DNA of 64,000 nucleotides from Caballeronia concitans. Lineage in GTDB: Bacteria; Pseudomonadota; Gammaproteobacteria; Burkholderiales; Burkholderiaceae. Position numbers and translations under genes: made by a program. The notes beneath the pieces are model-generated. The model worked only from the letters and a program-made list of their open reading frames with translations. It did no database searches and had not been told where the DNA came from. The stretch is from NCBI RefSeq assembly GCF_001544615.1, contig NZ_FCNV02000001.1, forward strand, positions 496,001 to 560,000. Reading direction: 5' to 3'. Positions 41,301 to 49,522 of this stretch are shown here, in pieces. The number at the start of each line of letters is the position of its first letter. Position 1 is the first letter of the stretch.

Positions 41301-41340
41301 AAATGGGTCTCCGGTCATTGGCTGGAGACCCATTTTTTAT
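41301..41340 (+). terminator. Rho-independent terminator of ssb
   Basis: A 12-bp stem AAATGGGTCTCC/GGAGACCCATTT with an 11-base loop, followed by a T-rich TTTAT. It closes the MFS-ssb transcript and isolates the regulator cluster that follows. Confidence 0.9.
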
Positions 41341-41673
41341 GTCTCGTGTAATCGTCGTTGAGAATTGTCTGTTGTGCCGAATTATGCTGCTATTTAGCAA
41401 TTAATCAATTTAGTTCTAATCGGACTTGTCCTATGGGCGCGGCTTTTTTCGTGCCATACGTTTCATGAGTTAAACCGGGTCAAGCGGAAGCGAATTATTT
41501 GCCTAGAGTCATCTGAAATTGATTGAGGCAAATATTCCTTGCGATGTTATTGCAGCAAATCGGTGTGTCTCGCCGCCGGTAAATGACAATGCGAACCGTC
41601 TGAGTTAATTAGGCTTTCGCTGCCGGGCTTGCCGCGAGATAATCGCCCAATATCACATATAGCCGGGGGTCAT
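41341..41673. other. AT-richer spacer before the response-regulator cluster
   Basis: About 330 bases, markedly richer in A/T than the rest of the window, with no credible coding frame. It contains the inverted repeat listed at 41496-41534 and several TTAATTA-like stretches. I expect the promoter of the first response regulator here, but I cannot place -10 and -35 boxes with confidence. Confidence 0.5.
41496..41534. repeat. 9-bp inverted repeat with 21-base spacer upstream of response regulator 1
   Basis: TATTTGCCT (41496-41504) and AGGCAAATA (41526-41534) are perfect inverted arms. Their centres are 30 bases apart, about three helical turns, which fits two dimers or a looped operator. It lies 140 bases before the first regulator's start, so it is a candidate control site. 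A simple hairpin is also possible. Confidence 0.45.
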
Positions 41674-42321
41674 TTGAAGCTTCGCGTAGTATTGGCTGAC
41701 GACCATCCCTTCGTACTGCTTGGGATGAAGGCGCTGTTTGACGCCGATGATGGACTGGACGTGGTCGGCGAAGCGACGAACGCAAGCACCTTGCTCGTTC
41801 AGCTCGCGAAGACTCCTTGTGACGTATTGGTCACCGATTTCGCCATGCCCGAACCCGGGCTGAGCGCCAACGACGGCTTGCGGCTCATTCGCAAGGTCAG
41901 GCAGGACTGGCCGGACGTCGGCATCGTGGTTCTGACGAGCGTGAGCAATGTCGCGATTCTGCGCTCCATCTTGAACGCGGGCGCGATGAGTCTCGTCAAC
42001 AAGGCCGAACCCATCGAACTCGTTCCCGGCGCTGTGCGCCATACGAGCGTCGGGCGCCGGTATGTCAGCGCGTCTTTCGTCGCCGCCCTCGCCGAGGCAG
42101 GCACCGAGGCGGACTTTTCACCCGAGCCGCCGCGCCTTTCGCCAAGGGAACTCGAAGTGGTGACGCTGTTCGCAAAGGGCCGATCGATTACCGAGATCGC
42201 CAAGGAACTCGAGCGCGACGTGCGCACCATCAGTCGTCAGAAGCGCGACGCGATGAATAAGCTCGGTGTACGAAACGATCCTGGTTTGTTTGCGTTTGTA
42301 AGGGCTCAGGGACTCGGCTGA
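41674..42321 (+). CDS. NarL/RcsB-type response regulator 1 of three
   Basis: 215 residues with a TTG start at 41674, chosen because GGGGGT lies five bases upstream and it gives the typical LKLRVVLADDHPFVLLGMKAL start; another in-frame TTG at 41629 lacks this. The receiver has acidic pair DD (9-10), phospho-acceptor D55 in VTDFAMP, and the Lys in LVNKAEP. The LuxR-type HTH is LSPRELEVVTLFAKGRSITEIAKELERDVRTISRQKRDAM, in the RcsB/EvgA style. First of a cluster of three paralogous regulators and one hybrid kinase. Codon use is less GC-biased than that of the neighbours. Target genes unknown. Confidence 0.88.
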   Translation: MKLRVVLADDHPFVLLGMKALFDADDGLDVVGEATNASTLLVQLAKTPCDVLVTDFAMPEPGLSANDGLRLIRKVRQDWPDVGIVVLTSVSNVAILRSILNAGAMSLVNKAEPIELVPGAVRHTSVGRRYVSASFVAALAEAGTEADFSPEPPRLSPRELEVVTLFAKGRSITEIAKELERDVRTISRQKRDAMNKLGVRNDPGLFAFVRAQGLG

Positions 42322-42487
42322 ATCTCCGGGTGCGTCATTTTGATTTAGGATGCATCTTATGTCTTTTGAGGTTTCAATATCCGATGCTTGTGACTCGGGA
42401 TCTAGGTCAGATTTGAGTTTGCACAACGCGTCGGGGTATGAATCGATGGTATCGGGGAACGGAAGCCAAGTCTTCTCGCACAGAAAC

Positions 42488-43126
42488 ATGACGAGATTGG
42501 CCATAGCGGACGACCATCCGCTCGTTATTCTTGCAATCGAACGGCTCGCCGCTAATTTTCCGAACGCGGAAGTGGTCAGTCGAAGCGCGGATTCGACGCA
42601 ACTGGAAGAGTCGCTTGCCCGGAACGAATGCGACGTCGCCATCATCGATTTTTACATGCCGGGCGGCCGCTACGGCGACGGCGTCGAACTGATCCAGCAT
42701 ATCGCGGCCTGCTATCCGGGGGTCCGCATCGTGGTGCTGTCGCGCGCCGATAACGCCGCGCTCGTCAAACAGGCGCTCGAAGCCGGCGCGCATGCTTTCC
42801 TCAGCAAGGAAGACCGGCTCGACCTGTTGTACGTGGCCATCGTCTCGGCCATCGCGAACGAAACCTATCTCGGGCCCGCCATTCGCCGCACGCTCGCCGA
42901 GGCCAACGTCGAAAGCCGCGCGCGCTTCATTCGGCAACGCCTTACGGGGCGCGAGCTGGAAGTCATCGAGCGCTATGCGCGCGGCGCGAACGTCACGGAA
43001 ATCGCGAAGGAATTGAACCGCAGCGTAAAGACAATCAGCGCGCAAAAATGCGCCGCGATGAGAAAGCTCGAACTTTCCACGGACGCGGATCTATATCGCT
43101 TTATCGCAGACAGCGATTTGAGTTGA
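42488..43126 (+). CDS. NarL/RcsB-type response regulator 2 of three
   Basis: 212 residues from ATG 42488 (MTRLAIADDHPLVILAI), chosen to match the size of its two paralogues; in-frame ATGs at 42350-42446 would add up to 46 residues without domain character, and no start has a good ribosome binding site. The receiver is complete: acidic DD near 8-9, D54 in IIDFYMPGGRYGDG, Ser in VVLSRAD and Lys in FLSKED. The HTH LTGRELEVIERYARGANVTEIAKELNRSVKTISAQKCAAM is RcsB-like. It lies 166 bases after regulator 1. Confidence 0.85.
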   Translation: MTRLAIADDHPLVILAIERLAANFPNAEVVSRSADSTQLEESLARNECDVAIIDFYMPGGRYGDGVELIQHIAACYPGVRIVVLSRADNAALVKQALEAGAHAFLSKEDRLDLLYVAIVSAIANETYLGPAIRRTLAEANVESRARFIRQRLTGRELEVIERYARGANVTEIAKELNRSVKTISAQKCAAMRKLELSTDADLYRFIADSDLS

Positions 43127-43225
43127 AGGAGGAAATTGTAATCAGGCAGGGATACCGGCCTTCGGGAGGCGGCAGGTAAAACGAGGTTCAGACTTCCTCG
43201 GTAATAAAGATAAATCAATAAGAAT

Positions 43226-43876
43226 ATGCAAATAAAAGCAGCGCTTAGGGCCATCGTTGCGGACGACCATTCCGCAGTAGTAAAAGGAATCAAAACGTTT
43301 TTGGAAAGAGACGGCACAATCGAAGTCGTCGCTACCGCCGAAAATACACTTCAATTGGCCGAAGCGCTTCACTCGTCGCCATGCGATTATATTTTCACGG
43401 ACATCGGAATGTGCGGCATGGACGGCGAGAGCAATTCCATCGCCTTTCTCAGACGTTTGTCTCGGCAGGAAAAACGCCCCAAGGTGATCGTCGTGACGAT
43501 GATTTCCCACAGCCGCATGCTCGCGGGGCTGCTCCAATTAGGAATCGATGCGATCATCGACAAGCGCGATTCCCTCGAATCCCTCTTCGAAGCGGTTTCC
43601 GTCACTCGAAACGGCGGCCGCTTCCTGTCGCCATCGGCTGCGCAAGCCGTGAGCTGTCTGCCGGATAACGCTCCCGCGCGCGCCGGCGTGCTAAGCAGGC
43701 GGGAATGGGAGGTGTTCCGGCTCTACGCGAGCGGCCTTCTGATTCGAGATATCGCCAAACGCTTCGGCCGAAGCAGCAAAACCATCGCCACTCAGAAACG
43801 CAGCGGCATGCGCAAGCTAGGCCTCGAAACGGAGGCCGAACTCGTCGAATATCTGCGGCAAATCGGCCTTGTCTGA
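43226..43876 (+). CDS. NarL/RcsB-type response regulator 3 of three
   Basis: 216 residues from ATG 43226 in an AT-rich leader. The receiver has DD at 13-14, phospho-acceptor D59 in FTDIGMCGMDGES (Cys in place of the usual Pro after the Met), Thr in VVTMIS and Lys in IIDKRDS. The HTH is LSRREWEVFRLYASGLLIRDIAKRFGRSSKTIATQKRSGM. Same architecture as the two upstream genes but clearly diverged from them, so the cluster arose by old duplication or stepwise gain. The kinase gene follows after 140 bases. Confidence 0.88.
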   Translation: MQIKAALRAIVADDHSAVVKGIKTFLERDGTIEVVATAENTLQLAEALHSSPCDYIFTDIGMCGMDGESNSIAFLRRLSRQEKRPKVIVVTMISHSRMLAGLLQLGIDAIIDKRDSLESLFEAVSVTRNGGRFLSPSAAQAVSCLPDNAPARAGVLSRREWEVFRLYASGLLIRDIAKRFGRSSKTIATQKRSGMRKLGLETEAELVEYLRQIGLV

Positions 43877-43906
43877 ACGCGTTGAATGCCTACTTTTCAG
43901 CATAAC

Positions 43907-43925
43907 TTAAGACGCATTTAAGACG
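43907..43925. repeat. TTAAGACG direct repeat, 11-base period, before hybrid kinase gene
   Basis: TTAAGACG at 43907-43914 and again at 43918-43925, one helical turn apart, about 95 bases before the kinase start. A TTAAGG follows at 43963. Direct half-sites on one face of the helix are the usual binding pattern of NarL/RcsB-type regulators, so this is a candidate site for one of the cluster's regulators. Confidence 0.4.
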
Positions 43926-44016
43926 TCTCCGATTTTCCTCGCCTACACCGAAGGTCAGACTCTTAAGGTTACCGTCGAGACGATTTTCGACGGTCCGCCG
44001 TGATGAGAGAGTCGAA

Positions 44017-46953
44017 TTGAAATCGTTGCTGACGCGCTGCTGGTTCCTGCTTTGTGTTCTCCTGCCTCCGGTGTGCTTTGCAGTGACGGCCCATGCCGAG
44101 ACGCCGGATAGCCATTGGACCATCGGCGCGCTTCGCTTGCTGCCCGTGCTCATCGGCGTGGCCGCGATTCTCGGCGTGACGCTGCGCGCCTACGTTCTTC
44201 TGCAGCGCGAAGTGAAGCGTCGCATCGTGATCGAACAGCGCCTCGCGACCCAGCTCAGCTTTCAGCAAACGATGATGGAAGTGGTGCCGTATCCGCTCGT
44301 CGCGAAAGATATGAACAATCGCTACATCGCCGTGAATCGCGCATTCGAGGAGGTGCTCGGCGTGCGGCGCGAGCAGATCATCGGCCGGACTAGCCTGGAA
44401 GCCGCCCCGTGGGGCGAGGCGAATAGCCGACGCTTGAACGATATCGCCGCGGCCACGCTCGAAACGGGCAGGCGGCACGAGGTCGAAGCGGAGTTCGTGG
44501 ACAATCACGGCCGTTCCCGCTGTGGCCTCTTCTGGACCGGTGCATTCGCCGCGTCCAATGGCGAGCGCGCGGGCGTCGTGGGAACGATGATCGACATCAC
44601 CGATATCCGCGACGCCGAATTGCGCGCGCGCCGCACCGAACAGCGGCTTCACGACGTCACGCGTTCCTTGCCTGCGGTCGTGTTCCAGTTGCGTCGCGCA
44701 GGCAACGGGCGATACAGCCTTCCCTACCTCAATGGCGATACCCGGCAGTTGCTCGGCCTCGATCTCGCCGCGTTCGCCGACGAACCGATCAATGTCCTGA
44801 GTCACGTCGATGCCGACGACAGCATGCGCCTGCTCGCGGAAATCGAAGCATCGTCGCGCACGCTCGAGCCGGTGCATACCGAATTCCGCGCGACCGTAAA
44901 AGGCGTGACGCGCTGGATTCGCGCCGATCTGGTCGCGCATCGGGAGGATGCGGGCGCGGTCGTCTGGAGCGGCTATTGGGCCGACGCGACCGTCGACCAT
45001 GCGCGGGCCGAAGAACTGGCGCGCGCGCGGGACGCGGCAGAAGCGGCGTCGCGCGCAAAGGACGACTTCCTCGCCATGATGAGCCACGAAATTCGCACGC
45101 CGATGAATGGCGTGCTCGGGCTCGTCGAAGTGTTCGAGAATACGCCGCTGAATCCCGATCAGTCGCAGATGCTCGGCATGATTCAGGACTCGGCGAGCGC
45201 GCTGCTGCAGATTCTCGACGACCTGTTGGACTACACCAAGATCGAGGCGGGCCGCTTGACCATCGAATCGACACCGATAGACCTGCGCGAACTGGTCGAC
45301 AACTCGGTCGGCCTGCTCGCCGGGCGCGCGCACGAGAAAGGCTTGCGCGTGCGCGTGGATGTGGCGCCCGAAGTCGCAGCCAGCCTTCGCGGCGACAGCG
45401 TGCGTCTGCGTCAGATTCTCTTCAATCTGATGAGCAACGCGATCAAGTTCACCATCAAGGGCGAAGTCTCGCTGCACGTGCGCGCGGTCGAAGAGACGGC
45501 TTCCGGGCAAGTGATCGAAATGCGCGTGACGGATACGGGAATCGGCATCGATCCGGAAGTGCAGGACAAGCTGTTCGAGCCGTTCGTGCAGGCGGAGACG
45601 TCGATCACGCGGCGCTTCGGCGGAACCGGCCTCGGGCTCACCATCTGCAACCGGCTCGTCGCGTTGATGGGCGGCACGCTCACGCTTCGAAGCGAAGTGG
45701 GCGTCGGCACGTCGATGACGCTGCGGCTCACGATGTCCGTCGAAACGCAGCAGTACCACATGGAGGGCTTGCGCGGCAGGCGAGGCATCGTGGCGGTCGA
45801 CGACGACGCCGTCGCGAAGGCGCTGACCAACTACGGCAAGGCGCTCGGCGTGGATCTTGAGCGCATCGCGCCGAACGATCCGCGCCTGCGTCTGCTCGAT
45901 ACATTCGACGGCGTCGATCTCGTCTTCTTCAGCGACACGCGCAACGATGGCCTGCCGCTCGGCTCGCGGGTGATCCACGTGACGGAGAAGCCGAAGCCGA
46001 CGGGCTATCGCATTCTCGACGACGACATCCGCGTGAGCGTGAACCCGCTGTCGTGGCGCGGCCTCGGCGCGGCGTGCGTGGCTGCGCTGACCGGCATGCC
46101 GCAGGTCGCGGTGAATGCGACGCTCGGCCGGGAAGCGAAACTGGAGGCGCCCAATCGCGATGACGCGCTACGCAGCGGACGGCTCGTGCTGGTCGCGGAA
46201 GATCATCCGGTGAATCAGGAACTGATCCGGCATCAGCTTTCGCTGCTCGGCTTTGCGTGCGATGTCGTGCATGACGGCGTCGAGGCGCTCGCGGCCCTGG
46301 AGACTACGCGCTACGGTTTCCTGATCACCGACTGCCACATGCCGAACATGACCGGCTATGAACTCGCGCGGCGCGTGCGGGCGAAAGAGAAGGGCACGTC
46401 GCGTCGCTTGCCGATTCTCGCCATCACCGCGAGCACCTATTCGAGCGAGCTGGCGAAGTGCCGCGAAGCCGGCATGGACGATTGCCTGATCAAACCGACG
46501 CGTCTCGCCACGCTGCGCGAGCATTTGAACCGCTGGAAAGCGCCGCAACGTCCCGAACACAGATGCGAAGCGCAACGCCACAATCCGCTCGCGCTCACGA
46601 ATGCCGATGCCGACGACGCGCTCGACATCAGCGGCATGGCGCAGCTATGGGGAAGCGAAAAGACCGTCAAGGCGTTGCTCGATGCATTCGTTGTGTCTTT
46701 CAGCGACGACCTCAAGACGCTCGAGCAACTCCTGGAGCGCGGCACCACGGATCATTTGCGCGACTGGCATCATCGCGTGATGGGAGCGGTGAGCGTGCTG
46801 CAGTACCGGCCTTTGATCGAAGCGCTCGAAGCGTTCCGTCGCGATCTGCCGCAAAAGTGCCTGGAAACCCGGCGGCGCGAAGGCCGCGCATTGATCGCGC
46901 GATGCACGCAACTGCTGGAGCGCATCGAGGCGCAAGGCGCGTCGATTACGTGA
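44017..46953 (+). CDS. Hybrid histidine kinase: TM-PAS-PAS-HisKA-HATPase-receivers-HPt
   Basis: 978 residues with a TTG start at 44017 behind GAGAGAG; the next Met is at residue 87, past the signal and membrane segments, so the TTG is needed. Layout: signal/TM 1-27, second TM about 36-62, PAS 83-195, a second PAS-like domain 205-330, HisKA 345-410 with H357 in MMSHEIRTPMNG, HATPase 455-575 (NAIKF, DTGIGI, GGTGLGL), a degenerate receiver-like segment 588-695, a full receiver 722-842 with D772 in LITDCHMP and Lys in LIKPT, and an HPt domain 868-975 with H919 in DWHHRVMG. It contains every step of a His-Asp-His relay, so output should go to the response regulators directly upstream. EvgS/RcsC-like, but without a large periplasmic sensor. 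Signal unknown. The 3' end overlaps the convergent LysR gene by eight bases. Confidence 0.92.
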   Translation: MKSLLTRCWFLLCVLLPPVCFAVTAHAETPDSHWTIGALRLLPVLIGVAAILGVTLRAYVLLQREVKRRIVIEQRLATQLSFQQTMMEVVPYPLVAKDMNNRYIAVNRAFEEVLGVRREQIIGRTSLEAAPWGEANSRRLNDIAAATLETGRRHEVEAEFVDNHGRSRCGLFWTGAFAASNGERAGVVGTMIDITDIRDAELRARRTEQRLHDVTRSLPAVVFQLRRAGNGRYSLPYLNGDTRQLLGLDLAAFADEPINVLSHVDADDSMRLLAEIEASSRTLEPVHTEFRATVKGVTRWIRADLVAHREDAGAVVWSGYWADATVDHARAEELARARDAAEAASRAKDDFLAMMSHEIRTPMNGVLGLVEVFENTPLNPDQSQMLGMIQDSASALLQILDDLLDYTKIEAGRLTIESTPIDLRELVDNSVGLLAGRAHEKGLRVRVDVAPEVAASLRGDSVRLRQILFNLMSNAIKFTIKGEVSLHVRAVEETASGQVIEMRVTDTGIGIDPEVQDKLFEPFVQAETSITRRFGGTGLGLTICNRLVALMGGTLTLRSEVGVGTSMTLRLTMSVETQQYHMEGLRGRRGIVAVDDDAVAKALTNYGKALGVDLERIAPNDPRLRLLDTFDGVDLVFFSDTRNDGLPLGSRVIHVTEKPKPTGYRILDDDIRVSVNPLSWRGLGAACVAALTGMPQVAVNATLGREAKLEAPNRDDALRSGRLVLVAEDHPVNQELIRHQLSLLGFACDVVHDGVEALAALETTRYGFLITDCHMPNMTGYELARRVRAKEKGTSRRLPILAITASTYSSELAKCREAGMDDCLIKPTRLATLREHLNRWKAPQRPEHRCEAQRHNPLALTNADADDALDISGMAQLWGSEKTVKALLDAFVVSFSDDLKTLEQLLERGTTDHLRDWHHRVMGAVSVLQYRPLIEALEAFRRDLPQKCLETRRREGRALIARCTQLLERIEAQGASIT

Positions 46954-47911
46954 CGTTGGCGGGCGTGATCCCGCTTGAGTCGGATATCGCGACGAGGCCC
47001 GCTTCGGCGGGCGCGCGATCGCGGAAATACGCGAGCGCGAAATCCACGAACGAGCGCGTCTTCGCGGATACATGCCGGCGGCCCGGATAGACGATGGACA
47101 CCTGTTTGTCGGCATCCTTGATCGTATAAGCCGGCAACAGGCGCACGAGCGCGCCGGCTTCGATGTCTTGCGCCACATAGCTTTCCGGCAGCACGGCGAT
47201 GCCCATGCCCGATATCGCCGCCTGACGCAGCATCGGCGAACTGTTCACCGTATAGGCCGGATCGAGCGATACCTCCTCTTGCATTCCCGATGGCCCGATG
47301 AACGTCCATGTCGAACTGTGAATATCCGTCGATGGCGCGAGGAAGTCGTGCTTTGCAAGCAAAGCGGGACGCGCAGGCGCGCCGCGCCGCTTCAGATATT
47401 CCGGCGATGCGACGAGCGCCGCCGCGACTTTGAACAACGGGCGATTGATGAGCGTGCCGCTGCTGACGAGATGCGGCACGACGATGCCAGCATCGAAGCC
47501 TTCGTCGACGAGATCGACCGGACGATGCAGCAACGTGAGCTTCAGTTTCACGTTCGGATAGCGCTCGCGGAACGCGCGCAGCATGGGCGTCAGCTCCAGC
47601 AATGAAAAGGACGCCGATGCAACGAGCTTGAGTGTTCCGGACGGATCGACGGAACTGTTCGCTACTGTCGCTTCGATTGTCTCGACCTGTTCGATCACCG
47701 CGCGACAGCCATCGGCGTAGGCCTTCCCCGCTTCGGTCAACGACACGCTGCGTGTCGTGCGATTGAGCAGGCGAGTGTTCAGATGCGTCTCGAGCAGCGA
47801 GACATAGCGGGTGACGACTGCGTTGGAAAGATCGAGCGCCGCGGCCGCGCGACCAAAAGATTCGGTTTCAGCGACTTTGAGGAAGACGCGCATCGCTTGG
47901 AGTTGATTCAT
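46946..47911 (-). CDS. LysR-family transcriptional regulator
   Basis: 321 residues from ATG 47911 (MNQLQAMRVFLKVAETESFGRAAAAL). The N-terminal winged HTH (SNAVVTRYVSLLETHLNTRLLNRTTRSVSLTEAG) is of the AaeR/DsdC-style LysR branch. The C-terminal co-inducer domain begins GTLKLVASASFSLLELTPML. It is divergent from the porin gene, with a 435-base spacer, and tail-to-tail with the hybrid kinase. It might control the porin or something distant; the sequence does not show which. Confidence 0.9.
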   Translation of the reverse strand: MNQLQAMRVFLKVAETESFGRAAAALDLSNAVVTRYVSLLETHLNTRLLNRTTRSVSLTEAGKAYADGCRAVIEQVETIEATVANSSVDPSGTLKLVASASFSLLELTPMLRAFRERYPNVKLKLTLLHRPVDLVDEGFDAGIVVPHLVSSGTLINRPLFKVAAALVASPEYLKRRGAPARPALLAKHDFLAPSTDIHSSTWTFIGPSGMQEEVSLDPAYTVNSSPMLRQAAISGMGIAVLPESYVAQDIEAGALVRLLPAYTIKDADKQVSIVYPGRRHVSAKTRSFVDFALAYFRDRAPAEAGLVAISDSSGITPANVT

Positions 47912-48346
47912 GGACAGACAACTTTGAGCGATGGACAGGCGCTCGTTTCCTTGAGTTGAACGAGCGGAAGAACGCCGCTCTCGCGTGCGCGATGGTAGAC
48001 AGCTTTCGGGTGCAAGGTAATCGGAGAACTCTGACTCTTGCAGCGTGTGGTTATCAGGCCACTGTCGCATGTCCGCAACTAAGGGCGGAAAAAGCAGGCT
48101 TGGGCAACTTTCTAGTGCTGCGGTAAGTGCAAGACGCCTAAGCGTTTACTCATATTGAAATTCGATTTTTTGAATTGTTCGAGAAGGCTTTTGTGGGTTC
48201 CTGGGGTGGTGGCTGCAAAAAGGCCGGTCATACACTTTGGGCTGCCGAATATCGGTGAAAGGCATACGGCGGGGCTTCGATCCCGGACGTGTCGAGACGC
48301 CGCGAGCAACCCTATCGAGTCATATGACTCTTTCAAAGGAACACAC
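47912..48346. other. Divergent spacer between LysR gene and porin gene
   Basis: 435 bases. The porin ribosome binding site AAAGGA lies at 48335-48340. An imperfect dyad GTAAGTGC...GCGTTTAC (two mismatches) lies near 48125-48150, next to an AT-rich stretch. LysR proteins often bind such dyads in divergent spacers, but I see no clean T-N11-A box. No gene is supported. Confidence 0.4.
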
Positions 48347-49522
48347 ATGAAAAAGACTCTGATTGTAGCGGCCATCGCCGCATCGTTCGCCACTGCCGCG
48401 AGCGCGCAGAGCAGCGTTACGCTGTATGGCTTGGTCGATGCCGGCTTCACGTTTGTGAACAATGTGCAGGCTCCGGAAAGCGCGGATCACTACAAGAACA
48501 GCTCGTGGAGCATGAGCGGCGGCAACGTCAACATGAGCCGCTGGGGCCTGCGTGGCGTGGAAGATCTGGGCGGCGGCCTGAAGACCGTCTTCACGTTGGA
48601 AAGCGGCTTCGACGTTGCTAACGGCGGTAGCCTGGGCGGTACCGGCTTCGGTCGCCAGGCTTACGTTGGTCTCTCGACGAACGCAGGCACGGTCACCCTC
48701 GGCCATCAGACCGACTCCGTGACTGACTACCTCGGCCCGTTGAGCGCAAGCGGTTCGTGGGGCGGCACGTACTTCGCACACCCGGGCAACCTGGACAACC
48801 TGAACGGCGACCTGTTCCGCGAAAACAACTCGGTCAAGTTCCAAAGCGCTAACTACGCTGGCCTGACGTTCAGCGGCCTGTATGCATTTTCGAATGCTGC
48901 CGGCGGCTTTGCCGCAAACCGTGCTTACAGCCTGGGCGCGGGCTATGCCAACGGCGGTCTGAAGCTCGGCGCTGCATACATGCAAGCGAACCTCCAGAAC
49001 TACGCTGCGACCTACGGTAGCGCGATCACGGGCGTCACGGTCGATGTGCCGAACCTGGGCACCAGCCAGATTGCCGAATTTGGTATCGATCGTCATCGCA
49101 CGTTCGGTGCAGGCGGCAGCTACTCGATCGGCGCGCTGACGTTCGGCGCGCTGTGGACGCAGACGCGTGAGGACAACTTCGCGTCCAACGTTGGTTCGAA
49201 CATCATCAACAACTATGAAGTGAACGGCCGTTACGCACTGACGCCGGCGCTCTCGCTCGGTGCGGCTTACACGTTCACGAACGCGAAGTTCACCGAGTCC
49301 GGCTCGAGCGATTCGACCCGCGTCCGCTTCCACCAGTTCGGCGTGCAGACGGACTACGCTCTGTCGAAGCGCACCGACATTTATGCTGAAGGCGTGGTTC
49401 AGATCGCTAGCGGTTTGCCGGAAGGTGTGATGCCGAATGCAGGTATCAGCGGCGCGCCGGGCGGCGCATCGTCGAGCAGCCGTCAGGTTCTCCTGACGAC
49501 GGGTATCCGTCACCGCTTCTAA
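48347..49522 (+). CDS. Outer-membrane porin, burkholderial OmpC/Gram-negative porin family
   Basis: 391 residues from ATG 48347. A signal peptide ends at AASAQ, and the mature protein starts SSVTLYGLVDAGF, the hallmark of this family. RWGLRGVEDLGGGLKTVFTLESGF, the GRQAYVGLS strand and the C-terminal Phe (TGIRHRF) are also typical. It forms a 16-stranded trimeric general-diffusion channel. A terminator follows. Codon choice is less GC-biased than in neighbours, as often seen in highly expressed porins. Confidence 0.95.
   Translation: MKKTLIVAAIAASFATAASAQSSVTLYGLVDAGFTFVNNVQAPESADHYKNSSWSMSGGNVNMSRWGLRGVEDLGGGLKTVFTLESGFDVANGGSLGGTGFGRQAYVGLSTNAGTVTLGHQTDSVTDYLGPLSASGSWGGTYFAHPGNLDNLNGDLFRENNSVKFQSANYAGLTFSGLYAFSNAAGGFAANRAYSLGAGYANGGLKLGAAYMQANLQNYAATYGSAITGVTVDVPNLGTSQIAEFGIDRHRTFGAGGSYSIGALTFGALWTQTREDNFASNVGSNIINNYEVNGRYALTPALSLGAAYTFTNAKFTESGSSDSTRVRFHQFGVQTDYALSKRTDIYAEGVVQIASGLPEGVMPNAGISGAPGGASSSSRQVLLTTGIRHRF

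Follow-up and report, generated by a model that had tools for sequence, protein, structure and literature searches.

Three RcsB-like regulators and one hybrid kinase form a conserved, single-locus candidate for a branched phosphorelay in Caballeronia

Two-component systems are usually insulated pairs, and a locus of Caballeronia concitans raises the question of how a single kinase might come to feed several outputs. The window analyzed here, a 64-kb stretch of the genome (contig NZ_FCNV02000001.1, positions 496,001 to 560,000), contains three tandem genes for RcsB-like response regulators (RR1, RR2 and RR3) followed by one gene for a hybrid kinase (HK). A preliminary description of this DNA had noted regulators of 215, 212 and 216 residues next to a single hybrid kinase, and all four open reading frames (ORFs) are present at the positions given below. 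We found that this cassette is a real, conserved candidate for a branched phosphorelay housed in one locus. Beyond what had been described, we observed the loss of the flytrap sensor from the kinase and a candidate operator of the RcsB type. The cassette comprises the following features:

41674..42321, plus strand: RR1, RcsB-like response regulator of 215 amino acids with a TTG start; Pfam Response_reg and GerE; separate clade
42488..43126, plus strand: RR2, RcsB-like response regulator of 212 amino acids; Pfam Response_reg and GerE; separate clade
43226..43876, plus strand: RR3, RcsB-like response regulator of 216 amino acids; Pfam receiver and GerE; separate clade; no operator upstream
44017..46953, plus strand: HK, hybrid kinase of 978 amino acids with a TTG start; PAS, PAS, HisKA (H357), HATPase_c, receiver (D772) and HPt (H919)
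46675..46932, plus strand: HPt domain of HK (residues 887-972); Pfam Hpt on the C-terminal piece and an AlphaFold2 model

First, we asked whether the four genes are inherited together. In a sample of 58 Caballeronia genomes, with a kinase counted at an E-value of 1e-100 or better, HK is present in 46; the 12 genomes without it comprise nine small ones (2.4–4.2 Mb) and three of 9.4 Mb. We examined the window along with the loci of all 45 kinase-bearing relatives in the genus. The order RR1-RR2-RR3-HK was observed in 44 of these 46 genomes, 43 of which have three full-length regulators, while the remaining two loci (L087 and L088) are interrupted by contig ends, the latter being decayed as well. 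Damage was also seen in L086 (kinase split), L084 (RR3 broken) and L073 of genome G053 (in-frame stop in HK). In what follows, group A denotes the window with L044–L070 (28 loci) and group B denotes L071–L085 (15 loci). In a family-wide sample of 299 genomes, a kinase match at the E 1e-120 threshold was found in 87. Group C (32 loci) consists of the 31 best-matching loci from g20 and g13 plus that of Paraburkholderia humisilvae (L100), whose grouping among the kinases of g20 suggests that g20 is Paraburkholderia. Three regulators are coded by 24 of the 32 group C loci and exactly two by the other eight, with none having fewer than two. The missing regulator is RR1 in four loci, RR3 in three and RR2 in one (L128). 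RR1 was not found elsewhere in any of the four genomes lacking it, nor RR3 in any of the three lacking that gene, the best matches being 31–39% identical as against 64–100% in control genomes. Since the losses strike RR1, RR2 or RR3 in turn, each regulator looks separately dispensable. All eight loci fetched by RR3 alone also match RR1, RR2 and HK (L097 and L101 in pieces). The more distant g24 kinases have one RcsB-like regulator alongside each.

Second, the phylogenetic trees point in the same direction. An IQ-TREE analysis of 83 chosen regulator sequences recovered RR1, RR2 and RR3 each as a single clade (SH-aLRT 98, 95 and 100, respectively); the deep forks are weak, and a common clade uniting all three was not rejected (p-AU 0.30). 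The same three groups emerged from a FastTree of 270 regulators, with printed support of 1.0 for RR2, 0.998 for RR3 and merely 0.45 for RR1. The sampled kinases from loci with tandem regulators form one clade (support 100). Separate regulator clades combined with a single kinase clade suggest that the four genes had come together by the time these genera diverged and have since been passed on as a set. Synteny, the loci fetched by RR3 and the clades together bear out that part of the preliminary description which ties a single kinase to the three regulators, as an old set passed down together. It had also named, as potentially refuting, a tree in which the nearest relatives of each regulator are paired with different kinases. 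The trees bear on this only in part: every regulator and the kinases are each recovered as one clade, but the attachment of the nearest outside relatives differs between the two regulator trees, in that a g24 regulator adjoins RR2 in FastTree (0.73), but not in IQ-TREE. Some outside relatives are single regulators adjoining flytrap-type kinases (g24 and L137); the regulator at C18:26647 (L042) is 43% identical to RR1, and no HK match is present in its 18-kb stretch. A recent tandem triplication was considered as the origin of the set and is not supported, given three old clades with low mutual identity (RR1–RR2 37%, RR1–RR3 33% and RR2–RR3 29%). Among the other loci, L137 (G203:C3) displays two near-copies, about 8.5 kb apart, of a unit with one RcsB-like regulator and a related kinase. 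L089 (G024:C44), L141 and L142 code for hybrid kinases that are 37–40% identical to HK in frames of about 1470–1540 amino acids; a full-length RcsB-like regulator was not found in these three stretches as fetched.

We then examined whether the proteins keep the residues of a phosphorelay. RcsB is the best NCBIfam model for each of RR1, RR2 and RR3 (142, 129 and 120 bits, respectively, under the 235-bit equivalog cut-off), the EvgA model scores 49–75 bits, and RR1 matches RcsB structures with an E-value of 2.6e-36. Judged by these scores, the three are RcsB-like proteins and not RcsB. The RcsB-style output domain noted earlier is recovered as GerE by Pfam, with RcsB as the top model for every regulator. 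The intact receiver Asp and Lys were likewise confirmed: the alignment shows Asp, Thr/Ser and Lys conserved in 42 of 42 Caballeronia rows for every regulator, and in group C (25 rows each) the same sites are conserved, except for one RR2 with Glu in place of Lys. In HK, Pfam identified two PAS domains, HisKA, HATPase_c and a receiver, with HPt uncalled on the whole protein at E 1e-3. On the last 128 residues, HPt scores 23.9 bits, which is 0.7 bits short of the Pfam cut-off of 24.6. Pieces from five orthologues straddle this cut-off, with two passing (26.9 and 26.4) and three failing (22.7, 22.3 and 16.9), and AlphaFold2 models the HPt as a confident all-helical domain (pLDDT 87.9). H357, D772 and H919 are invariant across the 74 aligned kinases (28/28, 14/14 and 32/32 in groups A, B and C). 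HK therefore displays the HisKA–HATPase–receiver–HPt relay with conserved His, Asp and His expected of the EvgS/BvgS type. The single hybrid kinase with HisKA, receiver and HPt is thereby upheld, the HPt through the sub-threshold Pfam score together with the AlphaFold2 model. Ratios of nonsynonymous to synonymous substitution rates (dN/dS), computed over 12 pairs with a purpose-written Nei–Gojobori script, are 0.01–0.25 for the regulators, with RR3 the highest in 10 of the 12 pairs, and 0.08–0.20 for HK. The phosphotransfer residues of regulators and kinase alike are thus intact under purifying selection.

A striking feature of HK is its N-terminus, which retains hydrophobic segments and has no flytrap domain detectable by Pfam. 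SBP_bac_3 flytrap domains were identified by Pfam in the four full-length relatives tested, namely L099 (C. telluris), L102 and L123 (both g20) and L136 (g24), and were not found in the window kinase or the stub kinase L065. Judging from this domain layout, HK descends from the flytrap architecture of EvgS, BvgS and RocS1 but without full membership in it. The stop-to-stop kinase frame spans 980–1224 amino acids in the 28 group A loci, 1209–1557 in 14 of the 15 group B loci (L073 is broken) and 1274–1897 in group C. Two main states are apparent within group A. In the first, about 100 residues of the second flytrap survive as a stub; within L052–L069, this state was recognized in nine loci by pattern and in more by eye. 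The second, represented by the window and L044–L049, has no recognizable flytrap, with a few dozen residues separating the first hydrophobic segment from the membrane helix. The pattern that marks this helix is absent from six loci of group A, which were left unclassed. As the sampled group A kinases constitute one clade (support 100), the distribution fits one initial sensor loss. The sensor-less kinases show dN/dS of 0.09–0.20 in five pairs among the window and L044–L050, as rough values with several dS near or above 1. With the flytraps gone, input via the PAS domains, via the membrane or through a default-on state is likely.

Next, we investigated the regions between the genes. Aligning upstream regions revealed two strongly conserved elements, one ahead of RR1 and one ahead of RR2, from which the box TMRGA-N4-TCYKAT was derived. 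We used an arms-only pattern because a first position weight matrix over-weighted the spacer; in the group A boxes before RR1 the arms are constant and the spacer variable. The putative operators and the flanks of the cassette are as follows:

41301..41335, plus strand: intrinsic terminator of ssb, the upstream border; 16-bp stem followed by a T tail
41419..41434, no single strand: RcsB-type operator 1 (putative), 254 bp upstream of RR1; TMRGANNNNTCYKAT matched on both strands
42346..42360, plus strand: RcsB-type operator 2 (putative), 142 bp upstream of RR2
43919..43933, plus strand: RcsB-type operator 3 (putative), upstream of HK
46946..47911, minus strand: lysR-family regulator gene, convergent with HK, candidate target; Pfam HTH_1 and LysR_substrate; syntenic
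48020..48034, minus strand: RcsB-type operator 4 (putative), in the lysR–porin intergenic region
48347..49522, plus strand: porin gene, candidate target; Pfam Porin_4

The box precedes RR1 in 26 of 27 group A loci (one locus being too short), in all 28 of group C and in 0 of 15 in group B, and it precedes RR2 in 27/28, 12/15 and 21/31 loci of groups A, B and C, respectively. Before RR3, it was found in none of 72 loci (A 0/28, B 0/15, C 0/29). It lies before HK in 9/28, 0/15 and 0/32 loci of the three groups, and in the lysR–porin gap in 23/28, 1/14 and 0/12. Control regions before ssb, an MFS gene and uvrA have no box (0/27, 0/27 and 0/25 in A; 0/12, 0/12 and 0/11 in B; 0/3 each in C), and shuffled means for the box counts by region are 0 to 0.12 per set. 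Across the 64-kb window, the box occurs at four places only, all of them at this locus, with 0.24 matches expected. The whole genome has 24 matches at 21 places versus four for the reversed pattern, and six relatives have 144 versus 14. Read from mechanical gene calls, 17 of the 21 places fall outside predicted genes; the remaining four extend into ORFs, which in two cases (RR2 and lysR) holds solely under the longest possible start. A stricter pattern drawn from the two regulator boxes matches nothing else in the genome exactly, a result that is circular when taken alone; with one mismatch allowed, it occurs about as often as its control (20 versus 19 matches).

The sequence of the box resembles that of an RcsB site. 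RcsB binds at flhDC of E. coli (as reported in the relevant part of PMC5829831), and the site there, TAGGAAAAATCTTA, fits the 14-base form of our box (last T omitted) as the sole fit in a 3-kb stretch; two 10-kb E. coli stretches around rcs and evg have no fit. The arms of putative operator 2 equal those of the flhDC site, which is the RcsB form TAGGA-N4-TCTTA, and the arms of most boxes are unequal. A 14-base RcsAB consensus, scanned unmodified, gave a weak result. The account of RcsB in PMC5829831 further describes K180 and S184 as touching bases. At the equivalent positions, the 42 Caballeronia rows have R/R in RR1 (42/42), K/A in RR2 (42/42) and K (42/42) with T (41/42) in RR3. The corresponding counts for group C, with 25 rows per regulator, are R 24 and R 21 for RR1, K 25 and A 25 for RR2, and K 25 and T 21 for RR3. 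Thus, none of the three has the RcsB pair, with K180 alone retained in RR2 and RR3. Such distinct fixed base-contact residues suggest that a similar box is read with different preference by each regulator. Accordingly, the different DNA targets that had been proposed for the three regulators survive in part: every regulator has its own fixed contact residues, but one operator type is common to RR1, RR2, HK and the lysR–porin gap.

As to its surroundings, the cassette is flanked by ssb on one side and the lysR/porin pair on the other, and the ssb terminator previously taken as its upstream border is present. A terminator scan of the stretch gave eight hits against a shuffled mean of 7.8, and a sigma-70 scan two sites against 2.0. 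The AT-richer character attributed to the cluster holds for the regulator part (1-kb GC of 0.573, 0.601 and 0.538 over 41–44 kb), but not for the kinase part (0.639–0.646).

Boxes and RcsB-like regulators were also observed elsewhere. In L221 (G000:C18:73302), a box lies 200 bp before an exopolysaccharide operon for a sugar transferase, a Poly_export/Wza protein, a low-molecular-weight (LMW) phosphatase and a Wzc-like protein. The box TAGGAATACTCTTAT is identical in five of seven scanned genomes (L226, at G000:C11:63671-63685, and G016, G039, G048 and G049) and in the present genome precedes a protein of 128 amino acids that looks membrane-like by eye. A further box, at C11:73737 roughly 10 kb from the first and also found in G016, G048 and G049, lies some 400 bp ahead of a gene for a lipoprotein that looks BamC-like, again by eye. 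Another box (L241, G000:C18:947417-947432) precedes a probably secreted protein of 152 amino acids without a Pfam match, with similar boxes in G039, G048 and G049, and that of L220 (G000:C20:122762-122777) precedes a DUF2827 gene, behind which lie two ORFs of similar appearance. Further RcsB-like regulators lie near large secreted-looking proteins (by eye) in L043 (G000:C35:318018 and 323376), which also holds a hybrid kinase, and in L042 (G000:C18:26647).

Taken together, we consider it probable that the cassette is a His-Asp-His-Asp phosphorelay that branches and regulates its own genes, its regulators reading a single type of operator through base-contact residues that are fixed but differ from one regulator to the next. 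HK would autophosphorylate on H357 and pass the phosphate to D772 and then to H919 of the HPt, from where it could reach the phospho-acceptor Asp in each of the three regulators. Once phosphorylated, these RcsB-type proteins would bind the dimeric TMRGA-N4-TCYKAT boxes before RR1 and before RR2/RR3 and, in the window lineage, also those before HK and in the lysR–porin gap. Sharing a box type while differing in contact residues, RR1–RR3 would be expected to compete, or to heterodimerize, with graded preference. The signal reaching HK after the sensor loss would probably be cytoplasmic (through the two PAS domains) or membrane-borne, or else the kinase may be constitutive with phosphatase control.

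Several observations weigh against this branched relay. The HPt of the window falls narrowly under the Pfam cut-off, and the loci were fetched mostly through the kinase, a bias towards finding one. The fit of the RR1 and RR2 boxes is partly circular, since the pattern was drawn from those sites; the HK site, the lysR–porin site, the genome-wide counts and flhDC are free of that circularity. Group B has only related-looking variants in place of the RR1 box, 10 of 31 group C loci have no RR2 box, and the HK box is confined to nine of the 28 group A loci. Some boxes may belong to other RcsB-like regulators of the genome, although none of the 21 places is within 10 kb of the genes for these. The exopolysaccharide operon of L221 was rejected as a conserved target, as the box occurs in just two of the 30 loci tested, its own included; 14 of these loci are merely 49–52% identical and may be paralogues.

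Of the alternatives, the one that survives best has a single cognate regulator, most likely RR2 or else RR1, with the other two lying alongside but served by another kinase, or acting as phosphate sinks or decoys. The single RcsB-like regulator adjoining the related g24 kinases would fit it, as would the weak deep branches of the regulator tree and RR3, with its high dN/dS and lack of an upstream operator. We nevertheless find it unlikely, because RR1, RR2 and RR3 are all present in order in 44 of the 46 genus loci, all keep their phospho-sites under purifying selection, and the losses affect any of them, so that every possible pair occurs. Typical RcsB auxiliary partners have receivers that do not look phosphorylatable, unlike the three receivers here, all of which do, and loci holding any two of the three regulators persist. 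Both points count against a heterodimer system, in which RR1–RR3 would chiefly form mixed dimers on one set of boxes and deliver one combinatorial output, not three branches. We hold such a system to be less probable again, even with a single operator type common to the RR1 and RR2 upstream regions, unequal arms in most boxes and the homo- and heterodimers of RcsB known from the pertinent section of PMC5829831. That the cassette is decaying, with sensor loss marking a kinase on its way out, is most improbable: the sensor has eroded stepwise, the kinase is split or broken in L086, L087 and L088 and has an in-frame stop in G053, RR3 is broken in L084 and the kinase is lacking from 12 of the 58 genomes in the genus, of which nine are small (2.4–4.2 Mb), yet the dN/dS of the sensor-less kinases is low, the catalytic residues are invariant and the operators before RR1 and RR2 are retained in the window lineage.

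Returning to the branched relay, we put forward a more specific version of it only tentatively, as possible though somewhat doubtful. An ancestral ligand-sensing branched relay may have turned into a sensor-less hub when one lineage lost the outer sensor and kept three regulators, differently tuned to one operator that is also present at lysR–porin and, in places, before HK. If so, control would come from regulator competition or feedback together with cytoplasmic input, and no external ligand would be involved. Irrespective of this, a kinase and three conserved DNA-binding outputs in one locus offer a ready-made comparative system, with natural genomes missing any one regulator and orthologues with and without the sensor. 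How a single HPt can serve more than one regulator, and what a sensor kinase still does once its sensor is gone, become directly testable questions, for which the operator supplies a computable candidate regulon as a starting point.

Finally, we compared the cassette with known systems. MrgRS of Burkholderia pseudomallei, as presented in part of PMC1557856, also has a LuxR/FixJ-type regulator adjoining a BvgS-like hybrid kinase, but with one regulator only, the likeness being one of description and not of sequence. The BiofilmReg operon of B. contaminans was set aside as a parallel because its regulator is called CreB family where PMC5192318 describes it. EvgAS of E. coli and BvgAS of Bordetella share the PAS-to-HPt kinase layout, and relatives of HK have their flytraps; these systems differ in having one regulator each and in retaining the flytraps (for BvgS, as covered in PMC2737282) that HK has lost. 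The cassette regulators also match the EvgA model at 49–75 bits compared to 120–142 for RcsB. The Rcs phosphorelay of E. coli (RcsC-RcsD-RcsB) resembles the cassette in that the regulators score best with RcsB and the operator arms equal the flhDC site. However, RcsB works with auxiliary partners, so that one regulator plus such partners stands against three regulators here, and the HPt lies inside HK. The earlier remark that no described system with such a layout was known proved too strong, since the Roc network of P. aeruginosa (RocS1/RocS2 and RocA1/RocA2/RocA3/RocR) works alike with its genes in separate loci, according to the portions of PMC12051241 that treat it. It is the closest described network that we found, the single-locus layout itself not having been found described in the literature searched. 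In that account, unorthodox HisKA-receiver-Hpt kinases feed several NarL-type regulators, and the motifs of the three RocA proteins are highly similar while their in vivo targets differ. In the cassette, one box type is common to the RR1 and RR2 upstream regions, where one or more of the three regulators may bind. RocS1 is there given two SBP_bac_3 domains that its paralogue RocS2 lacks; sensor loss in the cassette is between orthologues, and the two systems are likened by description, not by sequence. According to the same source, the Roc genes are spread over several loci and include at least two kinases as well as an EAL regulator, whereas the cassette brings together one kinase and three DNA-binding regulators in a single locus.

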